Positions 152 through 22,662 of a DNA stretch of 32,286 nt are shown here, piece after piece. Location: assembly GCA_010672585.1 (NCBI GenBank), contig JAAHGF010000049.1, positions 1 through 32,286 on the forward strand. The letters are read 5' to 3'. A program made the position numbers and the translations under genes. Numbering within the stretch: position 1 is the stretch's first letter; every line of letters starts with the position of its first letter. Under the pieces are notes generated by a model that ran no database searches, was not told the DNA's origin, and was given only the letters and a program-made list of their open reading frames with translations. The stretch comes from Okeania sp. SIO1I7 (GTDB lineage Bacteria > Cyanobacteriota > Cyanobacteriia > Cyanobacteriales > Microcoleaceae).

Positions 152-907
152 TTATAAATCAGCTCTAAAAGTAATAGATTTGTGAGAAACCTTAGACCAT
201 CTTAAACCTACAGCTTCACTAGGTCTACAACCAGTAGCCAACAAGAATCTCACAAACCCAGTATAAAATGAGTAATATTGACTCTTATTGAAATTATCAA
301 AAATACACTCAACCTCAATATCTGTAAAAGGTCTGGGAGACGGAGATTCTTCCCATCTATGTTTCAACCCCTTGATAATATTGCTAAAAAAATTTGAAGT
401 TGAATGCAAGTCACTCCACCACGTTACAGCAGCTCTAACCCAAGTGAGCACTCTTTTGCTCATAGAAACTGTAGTGTTTTCTAACAGCCAATTCCTGTAT
501 ACCTCAGCATCATTGACACAGAACTGTTCAGGAATCCATCTTTTAATAGTGTTCTTTAGATAATTCCACGTTGAATCTTTCCATCGGTAGCGATTAGCTT
601 TCAAAAATTCTTCCCAAACAAATATTATCAAAGGGGATTTCACGATCGCCTCTACTGGTGCTTGCAAAGTGGGGCGATATCTTTCCAGACTGAAATCAAA
701 CTTTCCAGCAGAGATGTCAGCGTTGATCAAAGCCAAAACAGATTTCGCTTGAGGATAATTATCTGGAGAGTCGGCCAACCTCAAGGCCATTACCTTGTCC
801 TTACCAAATATCTGTTTAGAAAACCTTATTTCTAGTCGGCCTTTTTTGCTGTGTATTTTGGCCTTCCCTCGTCCACCACTTTCGATTATATTATTGGCCT
901 TTTCCAT
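152..907 (-). pseudogene. Tyrosine recombinase/phage integrase, truncated before the catalytic His/Arg/Tyr
   Basis: The 251-residue product has the order expected of a cyanobacterial tyrosine integrase. Residues 1-70 are a basic arm-binding-like region (GGRGKAKIHSKKGRLEIRF). Residues about 90-170 are a SAM-like core-binding domain. The catalytic domain begins near 195, and its first active-site arginine, R228, lies in TGCRPSEAVGLRW. The frame stops 23 residues later, so the later Lys, His-x-x-Arg and nucleophilic Tyr are missing. Full-length relatives are usually about 350-400 residues. No continuation is visible in 1-151, where a transposase start is found instead. The start codon lies about 100 bp from a partial tRNA-Val copy, the usual place for an integrase beside its attachment site. 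It is probably inactive. Confidence 0.8.
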
Positions 908-1004
908 TGTATTGTTGCTTTTTCTGGGGTATTACACTTTTATCTTCTGCACCCCATCCGAAAACCCCTAAAAAATCAATCTTTTTTCAATGTAAAGCTC
1001 ACTC

Positions 1005-1046
1005 CTTACAAGCAGGATGCCACTGGTTCAAATCCAGTACCGCCCA
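1005..1046 (+). other. 3' half of tRNA-Val(UAC): probable attachment-site (att) remnant
   Basis: The segment reads as the 3' half of a tRNA. It has the anticodon loop CTTACAA (1005-1011, anticodon UAC), the 3' anticodon stem GCAGG (1012-1016), variable loop ATGCC, a T-arm with 5-bp stem ACTGG/CCAGT around TTCAAAT (1022-1038), acceptor strand ACCGCCC (1039-1045) and discriminator A. No D-arm or 5' acceptor strand (GGGCGGT would be needed) is present upstream, so it is not a functional gene. A 3'-half copy next to an integrase is the typical remnant of an element integrated into a tRNA gene. The intact tRNA would then lie to the left of the window. Assignment to valine rests on the anticodon. 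Confidence 0.75.
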
Positions 1047-1484
1047 TAAAATAAATCTAGTTATTAGTTAAACTTATGGTAATTATTTTGTTACCCTAAA
1101 TTTAATTAATTATTAGCTAAAGTCCCAGTATTAATGAAAATAGATATATTTTTATAGGTACTTATTACTTTTGATTGGCCAAAAGGCCATCGCCATCTCA
1201 AGTTTGATTTTACTGGACAATCAATATTTAAAGCCTCTCTCTGCCTGTCTACACTCTACAAGTAGAAGCAAGAAAAATTTTTCCTTTTAGTCAATCATCT
1301 CCTGGAAAATTAAGATGTAATAGTTAATTATTAGACATCTCCCCACCCCTACTTCCTATACCCCCACTTCCGATCAGAAAAGGGAAACCTTAAAATTTTC
1401 TGGGGTTTAAGACACGAAGTGGCCTTTCGGAGACTATCCCGATGCAATTTTGCCTTCTTCCTTCTTCCTTCTTCAAATTCTATC
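1047..1484. other. Gene-free spacer downstream of kaiC
   Basis: No gene is supported in these 438 bp. The stretch is AT-rich. It contains a short palindrome around GGCCAAAAGGCC near 1178 and, close to the kaiC stop, a run of 7-bp CCTTCTT-type tandem repeats at about 1451-1473. The same heptamer family recurs near 20.6 and 22.6 kb. Confidence 0.5.
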
Positions 1485-3044
1485 CTATTCTTCTGGTGTC
1501 TTCTCTTGAACTCCCTGTATAATTCTAGATAATTCACTTTTTTCATTAACTGTAATTCTAGTGGGAGAACCACTAATAATTCTTTCATAGCTACGGAAGG
1601 AATCCTTGATCTCTGGACCATTTGATGTTATTGTGTATTCTCTAATTCCTTTGTCATGCCATGAACCACGCATTTTGAAGACGTTAATAGCGCGGGACAT
1701 TTCACCACGAATTTCCACATACTGTAGCATTATGATTGTATCGGTAATAGTAGAAATATGAGTATTTGTAATAGAATGAGACCCCATAAATTGATCGGTC
1801 GTATTAGTAAAAAAGCCTGTTATTTCTTCTTGCTTGGCAAAACCTGTAACCCCAATCACAAATTGTCTAAAGGCATTATTACTTACTCCTCTTGCTAAAG
1901 CAGATAGAGAATCAATCGCTATTCTAGAGGGTTTAAAGTTCGCAATTTCTGATTTAATAATTTGTAAGTGGTCTTCTAAACCTGCTGATTCTGGGTAGCT
2001 ACACAAGATTCTCAATAGTCCCTTTTTTTCTAATTCTTCAAAATCTATACCCCAAGAATAGGCATTACGAAATAATTGAGCGCGAGATTCTTCATAAGCA
2101 AAAAGCATCGCAGGTTCATTATTTGTACAACCATTTTCTAAGAATTTACTTACTAAAAGAGTTTTTCCTGTACCTGTAGCTCCAGTTGCTAATATGATTG
2201 AATCTTTAAAGAAACCACCTCCACACATTGTATCTAAAATATCATCTCCAGAGGAAACTCTAACATTTGAAGAACGTTGAGTTAGTCGCATTGCTCCTAG
2301 TGGGAATATATTTACACCATCATTAGTAATCGTAAATGGATATTCCCCCTTCATGTGGGTTGTACCCCTCAGTTTTAATATTTCCATGGTTCGCCTTCTA
2401 CGCTCACCTTCTAGAGCATTACGAACTATAACAACATTATCTGAGACAAATTCTTCAACTCCAAATCTGGCTACTGGACCATATTCTTCTACTCTTTCAG
2501 TGGTCATAATTGTAGTTGCACCAACTTGTTTGAGTCGCGCAACTAAACGAAATATTTCTCTTCTGACTACAGAAGCAGCATCATATTGTTGAAATACAGC
2601 AGTTACTGAATCAATAGAAACTCTTCTTGCTTTGTATTTACGAATAGCATATTGAATTCTTTCTATTAAGGCAGATAAGTCAAAGTTTCCGACTATATCT
2701 TGCCCCTCTGGATCGGGAGAAGCGTCTAGTATAAATAATTTCCCATCATTAACTAATTTCTGTAAATTCCAACCAAAACTGTAGGCGTTTTTAATAATAT
2801 CGTGGGGAGATTCTTCAAAGGTTACAAATACTCCTGGTTCATCAAAATAGATAATTCCATTATAAAGAAACTGAATAGCAAGCAATGTTTTACCTGTTCC
2901 AGATGTACCACTTACTAATGTGGTTCTGCCAACTGGCATACCTCCATGACTGATGTCGTCGAACCCCTCAATCATAGTCCGAATTTTCTCAACTCCTACT
3001 GTTGCTATTCCATCTCTTTTAATAGGTTCACTATTTTCATTCAT
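1485..3044 (-). CDS. kaiC: Circadian clock ATPase/autokinase KaiC
   Basis: KaiC is the hexameric core of the cyanobacterial clock. It autophosphorylates, autodephosphorylates and hydrolyses ATP, and KaiA and KaiB regulate it. The 519-residue product has the same length as the Synechococcus elongatus protein and aligns without gaps from residue 20. The CI domain has Walker A GTSGTGKT with K52 and the Glu pair FEES (E77/E78). The CII domain has ATGATGTGKT and YEES. The phosphosites fall in HISTITDTII and correspond to S431 and T432, with T426 also kept. The C-terminal tail that binds KaiA (RITVNEKSELSRIIQGVQE) is intact. It lies downstream of kaiB on the same strand, but the 427-bp gap is unusually long and structured for a kaiBC operon. 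Nothing suggests loss of function. Confidence 0.99.
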   Translation of the reverse strand: MNENSEPIKRDGIATVGVEKIRTMIEGFDDISHGGMPVGRTTLVSGTSGTGKTLLAIQFLYNGIIYFDEPGVFVTFEESPHDIIKNAYSFGWNLQKLVNDGKLFILDASPDPEGQDIVGNFDLSALIERIQYAIRKYKARRVSIDSVTAVFQQYDAASVVRREIFRLVARLKQVGATTIMTTERVEEYGPVARFGVEEFVSDNVVIVRNALEGERRRRTMEILKLRGTTHMKGEYPFTITNDGVNIFPLGAMRLTQRSSNVRVSSGDDILDTMCGGGFFKDSIILATGATGTGKTLLVSKFLENGCTNNEPAMLFAYEESRAQLFRNAYSWGIDFEELEKKGLLRILCSYPESAGLEDHLQIIKSEIANFKPSRIAIDSLSALARGVSNNAFRQFVIGVTGFAKQEEITGFFTNTTDQFMGSHSITNTHISTITDTIIMLQYVEIRGEMSRAINVFKMRGSWHDKGIREYTITSNGPEIKDSFRSYERIISGSPTRITVNEKSELSRIIQGVQEKTPEE

Positions 3045-3220
3045 ATTTTTATCTTTGGAATGTTAAAAAAATTTAGCTATCCGCAAGTATATAAGTATAT
3101 CTACATATATCAGGATTGTCGCATCATAATGTATGGCATTTTTAATTTTGGGAGAATACAGAATATTCTGCTCTCTTACTTTTGTCTTTAGGCAAAAGTT
3201 TATCAAAATAATATGGGTCT

Positions 3221-3340: not shown

Positions 3341-3471
3341 TAACTTCTGACTTCTGACTTCTGACTTCTGACTTCGTTAAATGCCATACCTAAATGAAAA
3401 TCGCGACTATGTCCAGAGTATTTATATCACAAAATACTAAAATTTATGTTAATTGTATCAATAAGTTCATT

Positions 3472-3786
3472 TTAGAGATTAAATTCGTCTTCATTGAGTT
3501 CCTCATAAAGTAGATCTAATCCAATTAATACCTTTTCTCTATCTGAAAGATCCCCAATGATTTTTCTTACAGGTGGGGGTAATATTTTTGACAAAGTTGG
3601 TGTGGCCAATATTTTATCCTCTTCTGCTAATTGAGGATTTTTTAGTACATCTATTACTTTTAGGGCATAAACTCCTTGAAATTCTTGCTCAAGAATATCT
3701 TTGAGTGTCTTTAGTGCCCGCACAGAATTAGGAGTATTTCCAGCAACGTACAATTTTAAAACGTAGGTTTTCTTCAGGGGACTCAT
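3472..3786 (-). CDS. kaiB: Circadian clock protein KaiB
   Basis: KaiB switches between a tetrameric ground state and a thioredoxin-like monomer. The monomer binds the KaiC CI ring, sequesters KaiA, and helps SasA and CikA read out clock phase. The 104-residue product (Synechococcus KaiB has 102) keeps the N-terminal strand [16 protein letters not shown], the fold-switching segment [20 protein letters not shown], the [15 protein letters not shown] block and an acidic C-terminus. It follows kaiA on the same strand, but an IS200/IS605 relic separates the two. Its likely promoter lies in 3787-4107. It looks intact. Confidence 0.99.
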
Positions 3787-4107
3787 AGTTATTCTCTAGT
3801 GATTTTTTGCTGTTTGAGGAGTTTTTTCTTGATGAACAGAGGTTTTAACTATGTTTAAATTTTACAAAATTTACAAAAAAAATTATATTTTTTATTCATC
3901 TAAGGCGGACAGTAGTAAGGAGTAAGGGATATTTTCTGTTGTGTACCCCCGTTAACTATTGGGTTTAATATTCCACACCTCATCTTTAATATTAATCAAT
4001 CTGGGTGGAGTTTAATTTCTACCTCAATTGCCCCAACTACTATATGTCCCTAATCCGACAGTTCATCTACCTGATTCTTTTCTACAATTTGAAGGTTCAT
4101 ATATTCA
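3787..4107. other. Upstream region of kaiB
   Basis: These 321 AT-rich bp lie between the kaiB start and the end of an IS200/IS605 relic. No gene is visible. Whatever promoter serves kaiB should lie here, or reads out of the relic. Confidence 0.4.
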
Positions 4108-5238
4108 TTGACATACTCCCGACGTTGCCCTTACGGGACAACGCGGGATTCTTCAGTCTGGGAAACCCTGACCGCTGTTTAGACAGAGGTGATGTCCTCC
4201 CCCTGTTTTGAACTGGAGAATAACAAAATGTAGCTAGCTTGTCAAGGGCTTGTGAACGTTTAGCTTATGAAGGTATCCGAATCCTGGCCCTGGCTTTCCC
4301 ATACGACGCTCCCCTGCGGGAGAGCGCGGGACTTCCCGCCAGGAAAGTTAAAATATATTTAATAATTTGATGTTTTATCCGGCCTAAAGGCAGAGAGATT
4401 CTTGGAATCACTTCCAAGGTTTCCTCTTTCTTTGAGAAACCTTAAAATCAGCTATCTCTTATGAGTAATGTTTAAACTGTTTCCACCGTTCAATAGAACC
4501 AATGAACAAGCTTAATTTAGCTAATTCCAGAGGGTTATATCTCCAGCAAGATACGATAATGTGTTGCCAAATCTCAACTTTTTTTGGTGTGGACTTTATG
4601 AAGTCTCCTAGCTGCTTTAAGTGCGATCGCCACCACTTTAGTTAGGCTTTATTATTTTCCGGATGTTGTGCGACACTGTAGCATCTCCGTTCTACTAAAC
4701 TTAACCAAACTTACCCAAAACGATATTTTGATCTTTGGAGCTAGCTTCCTGCTTCTGTGAGAATCACCGACCGCAGTCTTTCACCTTCTTCTCTCCACAG
4801 GCTTAAAATCGGTGGGAACTCCACCTACTGATACACATAGTTTTTCAGGTTGACAGCTTGGTAATTGTATGTAGTTCCTTTGAATAATCTTAATACTTCC
4901 TTCTAAATAAAAACTTTCTTTTCTACCTTTTTTCTTAAAGGCCGGAAATCCACGTTTAGGAATAGTTAGAAAGTTTTTAAATGCCCGGTCTAAATCTCTT
5001 AAGGCTTGCCCTTGGCACACCCGATCGATACTTCATAATACCAGGGATTAATTGATTTTACTTCAGCTACTAAAGGTTTATGCAAGGTAATTGCATTCGG
5101 ACGTTTCTTGGTTGATTCGTACTCTTTGGCACAAGTTACCACTCCCCGGTTATCATCATGACGAGCAACTCCTGGGTGTTTATCAAGTATTTTTTTTTGC
5201 TGATTATTAACTTTTAACTTAGTTTTAAAGGATTTCAT
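4108..5238 (-). mobile_element. Decayed IS200/IS605-family element between kaiA and kaiB
   Basis: The element reads on the minus strand, from a tnpB start at 5238 to a right-end-like sequence at 4108. That end begins TTGACATACTCC and continues into a strong hairpin at 4118-4147, with CCCG, CGTTG and CCC paired to CGGG, CAACG and GGG around TTAC. This is the kind of subterminal hairpin that TnpA recognises. A second related hairpin lies at about 4304-4330. The sequence at 4150-4215 after the first hairpin resembles the region that encodes the guide (omega) RNA beyond tnpB. The size, about 1.1 kb, matches a tnpB-only member, but only the 5' part of tnpB is recognisable. The left boundary near 5240-5330 was not resolved. 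Confidence 0.65.
4781..5238 (-). pseudogene. tnpB: tnpB (IS200/IS605 accessory nuclease) 5' fragment, frameshifted
   Basis: Two overlapping frames together give the N-terminal part of an IS605-type TnpB, the RNA-guided nuclease related to Cas12. The first (5238-4999) carries MKSFKTKLKVNNQQKKILDK, KKRPNAITLHKPLVAEVKS and NPWYYEVS. The second (5020-4781) carries QALRDLDRAFKNFLTIPKRG, FKKKGRKESFYLEGSIKI and QRNYIQLP. The frame changes at about 5000-5020. Beyond residue about 130 similarity ends, so the RuvC-like Asp/Glu residues and the zinc ribbon are absent. No tnpA is present. It cannot encode an active nuclease. Confidence 0.85.
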
Positions 5239-10000: not shown

Positions 10001-10485
10001 ATTTGACTTCTGAACAAAAGGGGAGAGACTTAGGAAATAATACTTTTAGTTCTCCGATTTTTCCTGCTTTGAGTTCTGATTTAGAAGTGGCTAATCAAAG
10101 TTGGAAATATTGTGAACAAACAAAATTACCAATTGATAGTACACAGGTATTAGTTCAATATATTCAAACTTCTGGGTTTAAAGGTTTAATTGCTAAATCT
10201 TGGGTTGAAGTTTTGTCACAATTGAAAAATCAGAGTGTGGATTTATTATTAATTTGTTTACGGAGAAATTTACCACCTGGTTTGGATAAAGCATTATCTG
10301 ATTTAGAGCAAATAGTTACAAAACCTCCTATATTAGTGTTGGAATATTATGATTATAAACTACCCAAAAATATGACAGTAGAAAGTTTAAATTTAGTCTT
10401 GAGCAAGGTAGCTACAAAAATTTTGCCTTCTGATTTGTCAATAGTAGCTTTGTTGGAAGAAATTAAGGGTCAGTTGATATTTTAG
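7090..10485 (+). CDS. Hybrid sensor histidine kinase: CBS pair, PAS-like, HisKA-HATPase, degenerate receivers
   Basis: This is an 1131-residue cytosolic signalling kinase with no clear membrane segment. Residues about 10-160 look like a CBS pair (ELVVVNHQHQPLGLIYLHNL, ALVDKEGKFLGLL), a candidate adenine-nucleotide sensor. Residues about 205-365 look PAS-like. The HisKA domain carries the H-box ISHELKTPLTA with phosphoacceptor H389. The HATPase domain has an N box with N521, a G1 box DCGIGIP from D549, and GTGLGL. The C-terminal half holds a receiver-like domain (about 670-790). There E676 stands in the acidic pocket and N720 replaces the phosphoacceptor Asp (FLNPLLPLLSGWD). Two further receiver-like folds follow, also without the Asp. 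It is divergent from kaiA. The kinase-plus-pseudoreceiver build recalls CikA, but the N-terminus is CBS rather than GAF, so it is not simply cikA. No SD sequence precedes either ATG (7090 or 7096). Confidence 0.9.
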   Translation: MSMAYTTLKKFISFIPICLHTENLQVVWSILCKEKYNELVVVNHQHQPLGLIYLHNLIPDIDLKSETQSSQNHALILNWQQPLSEVSSLTLNSLRVLSADLPITKLWPYLQAQSEGQINQESDTLDLASPSTPIALVDKEGKFLGLLNTLRLLEFIAINQDREAELSRKSCISAPENVLKTSGKFLPTPTPKENLQPQTTAETSSYLYSLIELLEKLPLPLMLQSNDGEIIKQNLAWRSQITKESDLMEIADAVVSLSTKNIKQQSRRVEMPDSLAVVKDMITLSCPATTNWRFSPATLLQERAKLPESNSASSFCYYTQPDTYICTCPQENGQERVWQFSSQPLFDLTLILAQDVTEQRLIAKELEAKNADLIQLNRLKDEFLACISHELKTPLTAVLGLSSLLKEQALGSLNERQARYAQLIHQSGRHLMAVVNDILDLTRMETGQMELNSEPVDIQKVCDRAFQEALQLQYKNTQDSSSSSLPDSLKAKYTLEIESGLNTFIADELRLRQMLVNLLSNALKFTPADGKMGLKVAKWEKWITFTVWDCGIGIPADKQHLIFQKFQQLENPLTRQFEGTGLGLVLTQRLARLHGGDVTFISQEGKGSEFTLILPPSPPQKDLGTEGWETNDYLKEQGLIPTRKSEVGTKKYSKLPVNNYQVPVINYSSRLVLIVEAAPLFIEDLTNKLTGLGYRVVIARSGTEAVEKARKLQPKFIFLNPLLPLLSGWDVLTLLKTDVDTCQIPVVITATRGDKERAINNGANKFLSLPVEQLELEEVLAEFPDSASQNHYQKLVIMRLVPGKYEFQQSTEENYIYEEKFPSLPGEYTVIEADDLAQANLLAKIWQPNVILIEKVSNSVSPVKFINKFSQYSTLTAIPLVTLDSETTQVANQFKQLSVFPFLAFEKNDNNLTETKLDYEYLNSALCQVISIAAGMSWLPTILVMDVANIEDFTVPLTDVLSEEAIVNFSDLTSEQKGRDLGNNTFSSPIFPALSSDLEVANQSWKYCEQTKLPIDSTQVLVQYIQTSGFKGLIAKSWVEVLSQLKNQSVDLLLICLRRNLPPGLDKALSDLEQIVTKPPILVLEYYDYKLPKNMTVESLNLVLSKVATKILPSDLSIVALLEEIKGQLIF

Positions 10486-10581
10486 GGAGTAGGGAGTAGG
10501 GAGTAGGGAGTAATTCTTGACTTAGTTTGAGCATTTACAAATATTTGTGGCCTATTTGCGTAGTGCTATATCTAGAATTCG
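10486..10581. repeat. GGGAGTA heptamer repeats after the kinase gene
   Basis: About four copies of the 7-bp repeat GGGAGTA lie at 10485-10512 directly after the kinase stop codon. This is a short tandem repeat of the type common in filamentous cyanobacteria. The rest up to 10581 is plain AT-rich spacer. Confidence 0.7.
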
Positions 10582-11594
10582 ATAACTAAGACGTTGTAGT
10601 TAGAGAAATTTTCCATCACAGGCAAAGCTCAAAAATTCTCGGTGACTCTAAAATCTAATAACTAAGACGTTGTAGTTATTAGTTATAGAAATTTTTAATC
10701 ACACAGAAAGCTCAATATTCTCAGTTCCTCTAAAATCTAATAACTAAGACGTTATAGTTATTAGTTATAGAAATTTTCAACTCAAAGAAAGCTCAATATT
10801 CTCAGTTCCTCTAAAATCTGATAACTAAGACGTTGCAGTTAGGGAAATTTTTCACCACAGGCAAAGCCCTTAATTCTGAGTTCCTCTACAATCTAATAAC
10901 TAAGACGTTGTAGTTAGAGAAATTTTCAACGACTCAGAAAGTTCCTCATTCTCGGTGTCTCTACAATCTAATAACTAAGACGTTGTAGTTATTAGTTATA
11001 GAAATTTTCAATCACACAGAAAGCTCAATATTTTCAGTTCCTCTAAAATCTGATAACTAAGACGTTGTAGTTAGGGAAATTTTCCACCACAGGCAAAGCT
11101 CAATTTTCTCGGTGACTTTAAAATCTAATAACTAAGACGTTGTAGTTATTAGTTATAGAAATTTTCAATCACACAGAAAGCTCAATATTTTCAGTTCCTC
11201 TAAAATCTGATAACTAAGACGTTGTAGTTAGGGAAATTTTCCACCACAGGCAAAGCTTAATTTTCTCGGTGACTTTAAAATCTAATAACTAAGACGTTGT
11301 AGTTATCAGTTATAGAAATTTTCAATCACACAGAAAGCTCAATATTCTCAGTTCCTCTAAAATCTAATAACTAAGACGTTGTAGTTATTAGTTATAGAAA
11401 TTTTCAACTCAAAGAAAGCTCAATATTCTCAGTTCCTCTAAAATCTGATAACTAAGACGTTGTAGTTAGGGAAATTTTCGACCACAAGCAAAGCTCAATT
11501 TTCTCGGTGACTCTAAAATCTGATAACTAAGACGTTGTAGTTATCAGTTATAGAAATTTTCAACTCTCAGAAAGCTCAATATTCTCAGTTCCTC
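10582..11594. repeat. Tandem array of 13 units (75/82 bp), each with a near-palindromic core
   Basis: Thirteen units begin at 10582, 10658, 10740, 10821, 10896, 10971, 11053, 11128, 11210, 11285, 11367, 11448 and 11523. Each opens with the near-palindrome TAACTAAGACGTTGTAGTTA or a one-base variant. Two unit types occur. Type A (81-82 bp) continues TTAGTTATAGAAATTTTC and then contains AGAAAGCTCAATATTCTCAG. Type B (75-76 bp) continues GGGAAATTTTC or AGAGAAATTTTC and then contains CAGGCAAAGCTCAA and TCTCGGTGACT. The order is B A A B B A B A B A A B A, and the A-A-B block appears twice. In A units the palindrome extends outward (CTAATAACTA with TAGTTATTAG), and in the last unit both arms change together to CTGATAACTA/TAGTTATCAG. 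A+B is 157 bp, not a multiple of three, and TAA/TAG stops recur, so it is not coding. The whole unit is conserved, not just a core, so it is not CRISPR. Confidence 0.95.
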
Positions 11595-12012
11595 GTAAAT
11601 ATTTTTCTTCTCTAGTTTGACGTTCAATTCAATTCTATTACTCAACACGAAACTTCCTGAAAATTCTCTCAGCATTAAGAATTAACAAGAAGTTAATGTA
11701 ATTTGAGGTTTATACATTTTCTGACTTCTGGGATAACTAAATTCAATACTCAACATTCTGGGTAAATATTTTTCTTCTCTAGTTTGATGCTCAATTTAAT
11801 TCTATTACTCAAGGCAAAATTTCCTGAAAATTCTCTCAGCATTAAGAATTAGCAAGAAGTTAATGTAATTTGAGGTTTATACATTTTCTGACTTCTGGGA
11901 TAACTAAATTCAATACTCAACATTCTGGGTAAATATTTTTCTTCTCTAGTTTGATGCTCAATTTAATTCTATTACTCAACGCAAAATTTCCTGAAAATTC
12001 TCTCAGGATTAA
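11595..12012. repeat. 167-bp tandem repeat, about 2.5 copies
   Basis: Copies start at 11595, 11762 and 11929 with GTAAATATTTTTCTTCTCTA. The period is 167 bp in both intervals. The third copy breaks off near 12012 after CTGAAAATTCTCTCAG. Copies 2 and 3 are more alike than copy 1 is to either. Internal landmarks are CAAGAAGTTAATGTAATTTG and TTTCTGACTTCTGGGATAAC. The period is not a multiple of three and no ORF crosses it. The array abuts the 13-unit array with no gap but shares no obvious unit sequence with it. Confidence 0.93.
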
Positions 12013-12125
12013 GAAAGAGATTGTCTAGGTATCAATGATGAGGTGAAATTTACTCAGATATTTTCTGAAATGGAAAGATATTTGTCTTTTGATTGAATAT
12101 TTAATCAATAAATAATTAAGGAGCA

Positions 12126-12767: not shown

Positions 12768-13355
12768 ATGGCTAAGAAGTTTGCAATGACTATTGGAGTT
12801 AAGAAATATAAGTTCATTCGTCCTCTCAAGTATGCTGCAAATGATGCTAAAAAAATGCGAAACTTTTTACTTACGAAAGCAGGTTTTGATCAAGTTTGGC
12901 ACTACTCAGATTATTCTTCTAATAAATATAAATATCCAGGACGTTCTGATATAGAAATACAATTGGAAGAGATTGGAAATTTATCAATGGGGTCTGAGGA
13001 TTACTGTTGGTTTTTTTTCAGTGGCCATGGTTCCATACATGATGGTATTGAGTACCTCATACTTTCTGATACCCATAAAGATATTCAAAAAAGTGGAATT
13101 TCAGTTAACTATGTCATTCAGCAGCTCAAAAAATGTGGAGCGGGGAATGTTGTATTGTTTCTAGATATGTGCAGAGACCAGGGTATTAAAAGTATCGAAA
13201 GACCGGGAGAGCAAACTAAACAAAAAGCTCGTCAAATGGGAATGATTAGCTTTTTTTCTTGTAGTTCTAATGAATATTCTTGGGAACTACAAGAAAAAAA
13301 GCATGGAGCTTTTACTTATGCATTGTTAAAACTATTGGGTAAAGAGAAAGGATAA
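12768..13355 (+). CDS. Caspase-like (C14/metacaspase) peptidase domain, probably a truncated gene
   Basis: The 195 residues form the p20-like part of a caspase-fold cysteine peptidase (orthocaspase/metacaspase type). The catalytic His is H87 in FFFSGHGS and the catalytic Cys is C135 in VLFLDMCRDQG, with the specificity-related Asp before it (D133). The N-terminus AMTIGVKKYKFIRPLKYAAN is typical of the family. TAA at 13353 ends the frame, but the same frame then continues without any shift through family-like sequence (GRQTPCVVADPIEMSDFILI). The stop is therefore probably a nonsense mutation in a longer peptidase-plus-C-terminal-domain gene. Both catalytic residues survive, so the short product could still be active. 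The start ATG directly follows the Pepco-like relic. Confidence 0.85.
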   Translation: MAKKFAMTIGVKKYKFIRPLKYAANDAKKMRNFLLTKAGFDQVWHYSDYSSNKYKYPGRSDIEIQLEEIGNLSMGSEDYCWFFFSGHGSIHDGIEYLILSDTHKDIQKSGISVNYVIQQLKKCGAGNVVLFLDMCRDQGIKSIERPGEQTKQKARQMGMISFFSCSSNEYSWELQEKKHGAFTYALLKLLGKEKG

Positions 13356-14009
13356 ACTGTTAAAAAGTTAAATAAATCCCTGCAAAAAAGGGTGAAACAA
13401 TTAACAAAAAAGAAAGGACGACAAACTCCTTGTGTTGTAGCTGACCCAATTGAAATGTCTGATTTTATTTTGATACCAAAGTATGCAACGACAAGCAATT
13501 ATCAAAATGAAATAGAAGAGGATTTACTGACACCTATTGACGAAAAAATTGCATCACCAAAACTGCCAAAAGATTCAATTTGCGTAGAACAAAATATTGA
13601 ATTAGAGAATTTGGAGGAGTATCCTACTGAACCTCAAACAGATAGTTGTAATTGGCAGACTACAGATAATCAAGAGGAAGTAATGATTCTCCAGGAGTTC
13701 TTACAAGAAAGAGAAATAATAGAAAAACTTAGGAATCAAAGTAATGAAAAACAAGAAGAGATAGTAACACAAAATCAGTCAGTATTAACCACATTAAATA
13801 TTCAGGAAAAGTCTAATAAGTTTTCCTGCAAAAAAATATTAGTATCTACAGCATCAGTAGTAATGTTAGTCTTTGGTACTAATACCATTACTTTCAATCG
13901 ACTGCCACAAATAAATACTCAATTGCCTAAAGCACCTGCTCCAGGTATGAACAATAACTATAAAAGGATTCGACTTGTTGATGAAAGAGTTAATAATACC
14001 CAGGAATAA
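13356..14009 (+). pseudogene. Continuation of the caspase-like gene: end of peptidase domain, linker, membrane segment
   Basis: The frame is the same as the upstream peptidase and stays open from 13356 to a TAA at 14007. It starts TVKKLNKSLQKRVKQL and continues RQTPCVVADPIEMSDFILI, the usual end of this peptidase domain. An acidic Glu/Gln-rich linker and one hydrophobic segment (ILVSTASVVMLVFGTNTITF, about 13837-13896) follow. A GTG at 13392 could serve as a new start, but no ribosome-binding site supports it. The conserved reading frame shows it was once joined to the peptidase. Confidence 0.75.
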
Positions 14010-18445: not shown

Positions 18446-19422
18446 ATTTTCTCTACGTTAAGGTAGTAGGTTTTAGGTATTAAACTTGAATTTTGTCTAA
18501 CTACTTAGTAGTTAACTAGGGCTTGTCGATTAAATCTAAAGGTATTTACATATAAAGACTTTAGCCTTTTTTGGGCTAAAAAAAGTGCCTGGTATCACGT
18601 CTAAAACGCTCATGCAAGTTAGTATTTTAGGAGCATAGTTGGGCCGAAAAATCATTCTTACAATTCTTACTTCTACCTCTTCTAAATTTCCATTTCTCCT
18701 GTCTCCTGTCTCCTGTCTCCTATCCCTACTAAAAGACTTTTGAGCGCCAACCCTAACTAGCTTTCAGATATCAACTTAGGGTAGTAGGTTTTAGGTATTA
18801 AACTTGAATTTTGTCTAACTACTTAGTAGTTAATTAGCTTTCAGCTATCAGCTTAGGGTAGTAGGTTGTAGGGAAGTAGGTATTAAGTATTAAATTTTAA
18901 TTTTGTCCGACTACTTAGTAGTTAACTAGCTTTCAATTATCACCTAGGGTTGAAATTCTATACTTCTACAAGCAGGATAATTTAAGAGGGGTTGAAATGA
19001 CATTTCAAAAAGGATTTTGATCGATTCTCGATTTAAGTATAAATATAAATAAGCTGTTTGCTGACTGCTGAATTGCTGACCGCTTTTTCAAGTAATGATT
19101 AATATATAGCAATGATATAGCAATGAGAAATAATTTGTAAAAAATCTCAGGATATATCAAAACTCTGAGACTTTTACCCCTATTCTCTGTTAAGAGTTCC
19201 CTATTCCCTAAATTAAAAGATATTTTTACCCGCAACTGAAATAGGATTACTATATTTATATTTCATCTTCCCTTTAAACCAATATCTACATTTCCTAAAC
19301 TATTAGGGTCCTGTTATTATTGTCACTATGCTCTGAAGATCGGGCGATCAACTTTTTCAACCTAAAACCTAAAAACTAAAACCTACTACCTACCACCTTC
19401 TTGAATAGTTAATTTAATTTTT
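18446..19422. other. 977-bp repeat-rich spacer
   Basis: No convincing gene lies in this gap. It contains three copies of a 60-75 bp repeat (18462-18930, listed separately), a hairpin TTTAGCC/GGCTAAA near 18559-18580, a run of CTCCTGT heptamers at about 18696-18722, and plain AT-rich sequence from 18960 to the glycerate kinase start. Confidence 0.6.
18462..18930. repeat. Three copies of a repeat with an AACTACT-T-AGTAGTT palindrome
   Basis: Copies lie at about 18462-18520, 18780-18835 and 18857-18930. Each runs GGTAGTAGG, then TTTAGGTATTAAACTTGAAT (altered in copy 3), then TTTTGTCTAACTACTTAGTA ending in GTTAA. The 15-bp palindrome AACTACTTAGTAGTT is at 18499-18513 and 18817-18831. In copy 3 it is GACTACTTAGTAGTT. 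Copies 2 and 3 are directly adjacent and joined by TAGCTTTCAGCTATCAGCTT. The repeat is non-coding. Confidence 0.85.
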
Positions 19423-22275: not shown

Positions 22276-22662
22276 ATTCAGTATTTGAGGGTATAGAGAA
22301 TGATTGAACAGAAAATATATCTGAGTAGTAAGTATACAAATAATTTTGTCTATCTACTTATAGAGATAATTGCTTAATTTATCATACATCCAAATTTTTT
22401 AGACCGACAAATTTAAAACATTATTAATTATTAAATAGTTGACATTTAGTCAAGTATTCAATTGGGATTGAATTCTTGCTTATAGCAGTCGAAGCAAAGA
22501 GTGCGGACATATCAAAAGCTTAAAACTTAGACAACGCAAGATTTTTCCTTCTTCCTTCTTCCTTCTTCCTTCTTCCTTCTTCCTTCTTCCTTCTTTCTTC
22601 TGCTATATTCCTTCTTCCTTCTTCCTTCTTCCTTCTTTCTTCTGCTATATTCCTAATTTTAA
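22276..22662. repeat. Spacer with inverted TATAGCAG repeat and CCTTCTT heptamers
   Basis: This 387-bp gap contains no gene. Bases about 22494-22650 are an inverted copy of the 20585 repeat: AGCTTAAAACTTAGACAACG, then about 15 CCTTCTT-type heptamers in two blocks, each ending TTTCTTCTGCTATATTCC. The second block looks like a slippage duplication of the first. The rest (22276-22490) is AT-rich and should hold the promoter of the pentapeptide gene. Confidence 0.75.

Follow-up and report, generated by a model that had tools for sequence, protein, structure and literature searches.

What are thirteen tandem, non-coding repeat units doing in the genome of Okeania sp. SIO1I7? The units occupy positions 10582-11594, on the plus strand, of the 32,286-nt stretch analyzed here (the window, contig C54 of a 9.48-Mb genome). 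A domain scan of 10 window proteins placed them near kaiC, kaiB, kaiA and a hybrid histidine kinase, with a caspase-like ORF downstream. A first-pass annotation of this DNA had proposed a multi-site protein-binding platform, a precursor of small stable RNAs or selfish expansion, and had suspected selection on pairing between the palindrome arms. Of these proposals, the platform appears well supported at the level of sequence, because we found a matching predicted DNA-binding protein family; the RNA proposal gained no support, and the pairing hint failed. We consider it likely, from the comparisons below, that the array represents 13 tandem sites for a family of autoregulated DNA-binding proteins whose genes lie in other parts of the genome.

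Architecture of the array

Repeat, ORF and unit comparisons confirmed a tandem array at 10582-11594 (best TRF score 1187), and a recount returned the unit order originally proposed, B A A B B A B A B A A B A, with unit spacings in the two expected length classes of 75-76 and 81-82 bp. What distinguishes A from B units is a 7-bp duplication, TAGTTAT, that follows the core in A units. Every unit begins, as the annotation had recognized, with a palindrome around ACGT, AACTAAGACGTT(G/A)(T/C)AGTT. The palindromic cores, all on the plus strand, lie at 10584-10601 (core 1, B unit), 10660-10677 (core 2, A), 10742-10759 (core 3, A), 10823-10840 (core 4, B), 10898-10915 (core 5, B), 10973-10990 (core 6, A), 11055-11072 (core 7, B), 11130-11147 (core 8, A), 11212-11229 (core 9, B), 11287-11304 (core 10, A), 11369-11386 (core 11, A), 11450-11467 (core 12, B) and 11525-11542 (core 13, A, at the array end). 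Core 4 is a GCAGTT variant; core 3 is an ATAGTT variant and is identical to the site preceding four HTH genes read in this genome (see below). No ORF of at least 80 aa overlaps 10582-11594, in agreement with the view that the repeat is non-coding. A CRISPR array (repeats of ~25-40 bp, unique spacers, cas genes) was likewise rejected, as the spacers are repeated units of two types and cas domains were absent from the 10 window proteins scanned.

Conservation had been thought to cover the whole unit. Variation is instead uneven and concentrated in the spacer, and the conserved part is an 18-bp near-palindrome: across the 13 window units and the 14 units at the syntenic site of a second genome, 1 of 18 core columns varies (2 of 18 bases if the A/B gap is left out of account) versus 33 of 65 spacer columns. 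The coordinated change of both arms noted in the last unit did not hold up in a larger sample, since the varying pair is A/T in eight, G/T in three, A/C in two and G/C in one of 14 A units from the two genomes.

Other repeats were apparent in the window. A second tandem array (11595-12015; 167 bp, 2.5 copies) directly abuts the palindrome array, and its first unit contains a dyad, ATTAACAAGAAGTTAAT, to which another paralog may bind. The interval 12768-14009 holds the caspase-like Peptidase_C14 ORF of 195 aa and, after it, an ORF of 205 aa with no Pfam match. Heptamer runs occur at 3343-3375 (ACTTCTG), 10483-10512 (TAGGGAG), 18695-18721 (TCTCCTG) and 22545-22643 (TTCCTTC), and collagen-like 18- and 54-bp repeats fill a reading frame that runs off the contig end (31442-32286).

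The palindrome recurs in arrays with differing spacers

The core found in the window, hereafter class I, is an 18-bp near-palindrome of the form AACT-NN-(A/G)ACGTT-NN-AGTT. Searching with the whole array gave matches in 8 of 39 genomes including its own, many of them short and covering the core region. The generalized core AACTNNRACGTTNNAGTT gave 126 strand-wise matches (78 plus, 48 minus) in the 9.48-Mb genome, and the reversed control gave none; at least six of the 126 fall within reading frames and are probably coincidental. One reading-frame motif, AACTCAGACGTTATAGTT, mimics the class I palindrome and has to be left out of counts; matches of this form in reading frames were dropped in this genome at C15, C28:62565, C33 and C48 (twice), as was a match at C30 (1904-aa ORF), and the tallies for G007 and G011 include matches of the AACTCAGACGTTATAGTT form. 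The mimic was also seen inside reading frames at loci L058, L066, L069, L073 and L074.

At least 10 other tandem arrays of the class I palindrome are present in this genome, with differing periods and largely unrelated spacers. Among the stretches fetched, 11 clusters of at least three sites (the window array included) had main spacings of 39/79, 52, 63, 78-79, 93-94, ~154 and 169 bp beside the 75/82 bp of the window, and a twelfth array, of 141 bp, was found in a blind 400-kb sample. When spacers were compared without their cores (12 units from 11 class I arrays), 12 of 66 pairs beat every shuffle; eight of these links were strong and fell within three groups and four were marginal, leaving five to seven spacer groups according to how the marginal links are treated. 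Class I units share no border beyond the core. Spacers exceeded cores in variability in 20 of 21 arrays (37 of 363 core columns varying, 361 of 1496 spacer columns), in a sample restricted to arrays of at least four units from classes I, III and IV, not II, of which 16 came from this genome, after scanning 70 loci. Lost cores are under-counted in this comparison, because units were located via their cores (at most five mismatches). The single exception, L198, is a 168-bp array (768-3156) with the class IV core in both orientations.

The arrays are not placed or oriented in any consistent way with respect to genes, and their periods tend weakly to multiples of 10.5 bp (R 0.36, p~0.03, uncorrected; 28 values, some of which share a locus). 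Two loci combine palindromes in other ways: at L064 (3000-4060) a 169-bp unit carries the class I palindrome together with a second, class III-like dyad, and at L068 (3080-3131) two class I palindromes stand inverted, 34 bp apart, near an SMC/RecF-type ATPase ORF (3393-4607).

These data bear on the most serious rival to protein-loaded sites, namely that the arrays are a passive satellite: like other intergenic DNA of this repeat-rich genome, operator-like sites would have multiplied through slippage or unequal exchange, and even if the protein occupies them, the cell would gain nothing. Tandem arrays lacking a known palindrome are common, accounting for 14 of the 17 in the 400-kb sample (round coordinates, large contigs) versus three with one, so the genome makes arrays readily. 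Period, spacer and gene context also vary widely between arrays, and copy number differs at the syntenic site (13 versus 14 units). Against this stand the lower variability of the core and the sharing of one core by 11 class I arrays from several spacer groups; in addition, palindrome loci in the 400-kb sample fall in arrays more often, in our reading, than one would guess from how little of the DNA arrays occupy. Selfish or passive expansion may be the route by which arrays grow, and as a full account of them we judge passive amplification unlikely, if the strongest of the competing readings.

A family of predicted DNA-binding proteins carries the palindrome at its gene starts

In this genome, isolated copies of AACTAAGACGTTATAGTT end exactly at position -1 before the ATG of four HTH paralogs (one on C88). 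The class I clade of a protein tree comprises 45 rows drawn from several genomes, orthologs among them; in 44 of these the site ends at -1, and in the remaining one at -3. A start could be read for 24 genes in named Okeania, Hydrocoleum and Microcoleaceae records, and 22 of those have the site. The predicted class I protein site can be written as AACTAAGACGTTRTAGTT. Matches to the family number 27 in this genome, 24-29 in each of four genomes of the same genus and up to 48 in genus g7; no family gene was found within the window. Of 19 family genes (of the 27) whose upstream sequence was read, 17 carry a palindrome of a recognized class and two do not.

The first three HTH products are 175-195 aa long and have a weak N-terminal HTH_17/excisionase match (E 0.007-0.01; 16.6-16.9 bits, under the curated cut-off of 27). 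Their C-terminal domain is related to phrog_8676, a phage family with no assigned function, and is found in eight phage records; relatives of the HTH proteins were not confirmed in any viral contig, and there were none in the plasmid collection. An AlphaFold model reached pLDDT ~70-88 over residues 1-50 and 55 overall, with confidence confined to the N-terminal winged HTH, where helices are predicted at residues 8-15 and 19-27 and strands at 35-37 and 40-44. Foldseek returned no match to this model at E 1e-3; the matches we favor, phage Xis 4j2n (probability 0.77, E 1.7, rank 8), 3ucs and the MerR-type 5d90, were not top-ranked. The N-terminal domain is tentatively predicted, from the model and the profile match, to be an excisionase/MerR-like winged HTH.

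Values of dN/dS were 0.04-0.35 in 15 of 16 ortholog pairs and 0.72 in one pair with few changes, and the operator was identical at 18 of 18 positions in 15 of the 16 (pairs overlap in both counts). Divergent paralogs carry other palindromes upstream, and in several other clades the palindrome lies ~6-13 bp upstream, in some cases with a ribosome-site-like stretch between it and the gene. On a 92-row protein tree, eight operator labels required 12 changes compared with 46.5 when shuffled (0 of 200 shuffles as low), with the labels set after reading the sequences, 21 rows classed as 'other' and some long branches flagged. The sequences show that palindrome class follows protein clade. They also show that one palindrome serves both gene starts and array cores, and that cores are kept while spacers drift.

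Palindromes of divergent paralogs as predictors of arrays

If the arrays are sites for these proteins, the palindromes of divergent paralogs should form arrays as well. Four paralog palindromes were searched in this genome, each against a control. The class III palindrome ACTRTTGKMCAAYAGT, allowing one mismatch, occurs at 297 places versus none for its control, a few of them in reading frames, and forms arrays of ~71, 76 and 77 bp. Class IV, ATTGCGACNGTCGCAAT, allowing two mismatches, occurs at 42 places versus none; the operator itself is the sole exact copy, and array sites keep the arms ATTGCG/CGCAAT with two central bases changed relative to the operator. Periods of the ATTGCGACNGTCGCAAT arrays are 43-44, 52, 65, 83 and 168 bp, with up to 22 units. 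Class II, AACTGTTTCGGARCA, allowing one mismatch, gave 36 places versus one and is the weak case: 11 of the places belong to a coding repeat, no fewer than six others fall within reading frames, a 69-bp array in apparent ORFs on the two strands accounts for nine, and a single ~136-bp array is clearly intergenic. The ACGATC palindrome ACTANAACGATCTAGT gave five places versus three for its control and no array in this genome. A 99-bp array at C22:425658 was dropped as it lies inside an ORF. Two of the predictions hold clearly, one holds weakly and one fails.

Single class III palindromes also occur within a dispersed, MITE-like element of ~56 bp, ACTRTGTATAGAGTCCAGTA-palindrome-...ACTATATATAGCG, which is present at roughly twelve intergenic loci (L172-L190). 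This element is one of the points favoring a mobile-element origin, in which the palindromes would mark the ends or centers of short, non-autonomous elements, with the HTH proteins as what is left of a transposition or excision system; the weak resemblance of the HTH to excisionases and the phage relatives of the C-terminal domain are others. We regard this origin as improbable, given that orthologous copies with similar upstream sequence persist in related genomes under purifying selection and that class I array units have no common border outside the core.

Genes and sites coincide across the cyanobacteria

A profile search (at most eight candidates scored per genome) found the protein in 8 of 386 cyanobacterial genomes, from five families. 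Relatives outside the family of the window's genome carry AACTATAACGTTAGAGTT (twice), AACTCTAGCGCTAGAGTT and AACTATTGCGCAATAGTT upstream. A site pattern for the phylum, built from three out-of-family genomes, was scanned over the 386 genomes with one mismatch allowed. At least three sites were found in 7 of 8 gene-bearing genomes versus 0 of 378 gene-less genomes, whose maximum was two (Fisher 3e-14, uncorrected for kinship), and at least three remained in all seven after the source operators were subtracted. The reversed control reaches three to four in about nine gene-less genomes, and two of the gene-bearing genomes, G363 (5 versus 3) and G172 (4 versus 2), are little above their own reversed control; in G023, the gene is present and the scan gave no pattern site. 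Among 61 genomes of the window's family, the numbers of gene matches and class I sites are correlated (Spearman 0.83), and 14 of the 61 have exact class III sites, these being the same three genera and, with one place, G020. An array of AACTATTGCGCAATAGTT with a 73-bp period was noted in G010 (C81:36230-36539), a class absent from the operators read in that genome.

Explanations at the RNA level

The exact placement of the class I site, ending at -1 where a hairpin would mask the start codon, is what an RNA-level operator would lead one to expect: the palindrome before the ATG would act as an mRNA hairpin controlling HTH translation, with the arrays as decoy RNA. The more distant palindromes of several other clades, some separated from the gene by the ribosome-site-like stretch, do not fit this arrangement; moreover, the core has internal mismatches, its flanking arms do not covary and the sole recognizable domain of the protein is a DNA-binding fold. 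We hold such a mechanism to be very improbable.

HetF is a caspase-type protein. In Nostoc, the NsiR1 array comprises 12 tandem copies upstream of hetF, each described as having its own promoter (PMC9045159). Like our array, it consists of a dozen or so tandem units lying between genes of a cyanobacterium, and it has a caspase-type gene close by, here the caspase-like ORF downstream. As portrayed in that source, it differs in working as RNA through a promoter in each unit, whereas the units here have no promoter or RNA-fold signal. One weak promoter-like site does lie 37 bp upstream of the array (10517-10545), but none lies inside it (5 in the region versus 8.7 expected), none of 11 units folded better than its shuffles (nine plus-strand and two minus-strand units, z -0.13 to +1.21), the array has no Rfam match, and no common RNA would result from arrays that share a core and largely lack a common spacer, so a transcribed array with a promoter and small RNA per unit, and with it the proposed small stable RNA precursor, is by these predictions the least probable reading of all. 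The Trichodesmium genome is described as ~40% non-coding, with ~80% of that fraction found transcribed (PMC4649490); the array could thus be transcribed without transcription being its function.

Discussion

Protein-loaded sites remain our preferred explanation. We infer direct binding, dimerization and autorepression: the protein would combine an N-terminal winged HTH with a C-terminal domain common to phage proteins, and most likely a winged-HTH homodimer would bind AACTnnAACGTTnnAGTT, a dyad of 18 bp. Since a copy of this dyad covers the beginning of the gene that encodes the protein, a dimer bound there would repress that gene. Further copies in satellite-like arrays would be loaded by the same dimers, and divergent paralogs would use other palindromes, most with arrays of their own. 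The arrays may then be docking platforms that gather many dimers in one place, the resulting nucleoprotein cluster organizing, insulating or anchoring the DNA of a very large genome; as a by-product, arrays would also set the protein level by titrating the autorepressor. This docking function, which we favor, is the weakest step of the explanation.

Palindrome and proteins together suggest 'satellite' DNA in a bacterium, with binding proteins of its own to match. Conserved boxes are reported from otherwise dissimilar nematode satellites (PMC3694981), and, going by that account, the CENP-B box and nematode satellites share with our arrays a short conserved box in tandem repeats whose remaining sequence differs; a conserved box within otherwise unrelated tandem arrays is what we found here. 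In the CENP-B case the binding protein is known, whereas here it is predicted from sequence. Unlike CENP-B satellites, the present arrays are bacterial and palindromic, several box classes are matched to paralogous proteins, and the box also stands at gene starts.

The parC locus has clustered direct repeats bound by the adaptor ParR, with families that have their own repeat sequences (PMC9426499). The likeness to the system described there is a DNA-binding adaptor on clustered repeats, with binding predicted in our case, and a site also appears at the protein's own gene here, as judged from the putative operators. Unlike parC/ParR, the protein is an HTH rather than the typical ribbon-helix-helix, the sites are palindromic, the arrays are many and dispersed over the chromosome, and there is no match in the plasmid collection. 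No filament-forming NTPase was found among 10 window proteins and 10 proteins of other loci (few HTH loci being annotated); one of the latter, at L068, has the SMC/RecF-type ATPase domain.

Xis proteins bind clustered sites. The family is predicted to share the fold of Xis/MerR-type winged HTHs in its N-terminal 50 residues, and is unlike them in its greater length, extra C-terminal domain and many paralogs per genome. REP/BIME palindromes and the ram sites of RacA are dispersed chromosomal palindromes bound by proteins; unlike these, the present sites form head-to-tail arrays with array-specific spacers, and their palindrome classes are matched to genes. TAACTGA heptamers are reported as intergenic in some cyanobacteria and other bacteria, with many just before start codons in one genome (PMC4679880). 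As characterized there, they are 7-bp simple repeats, whereas ours are palindromes with long spacers.

Autoregulated HTH proteins are a known kind, as are the other parts of the system: clustered sites, boxed satellites and parC repeats. None of the systems we compared unites many paralogs with palindromes specific to each class and with matching satellites dispersed over a bacterial chromosome, and no prior description was found in the literature searched, which lay mostly beyond subscription full text. We raise as a tentative, and on balance doubtful, proposal that the paralog set of Okeania-type cyanobacteria, with a palindrome for each clade and satellite arrays over the chromosome for most classes, is a counterpart of box-bearing centromeric satellites; as protein clusters addressed by sequence, it would organize, anchor or segregate a very large genome, and its addresses would diversify through co-evolution of recognition helix and palindrome.

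The upkeep of the ~40% of non-coding DNA in Trichodesmium, a repeat-rich marine cyanobacterium, is presented as unexplained in the account of its genome (PMC4649490). Part of such DNA here gains a candidate partner in a paralogous protein family whose gene-start palindromes predict existing satellites, and what was an anonymous repeat becomes a putative lock-and-key system with several candidate protein-site pairs.
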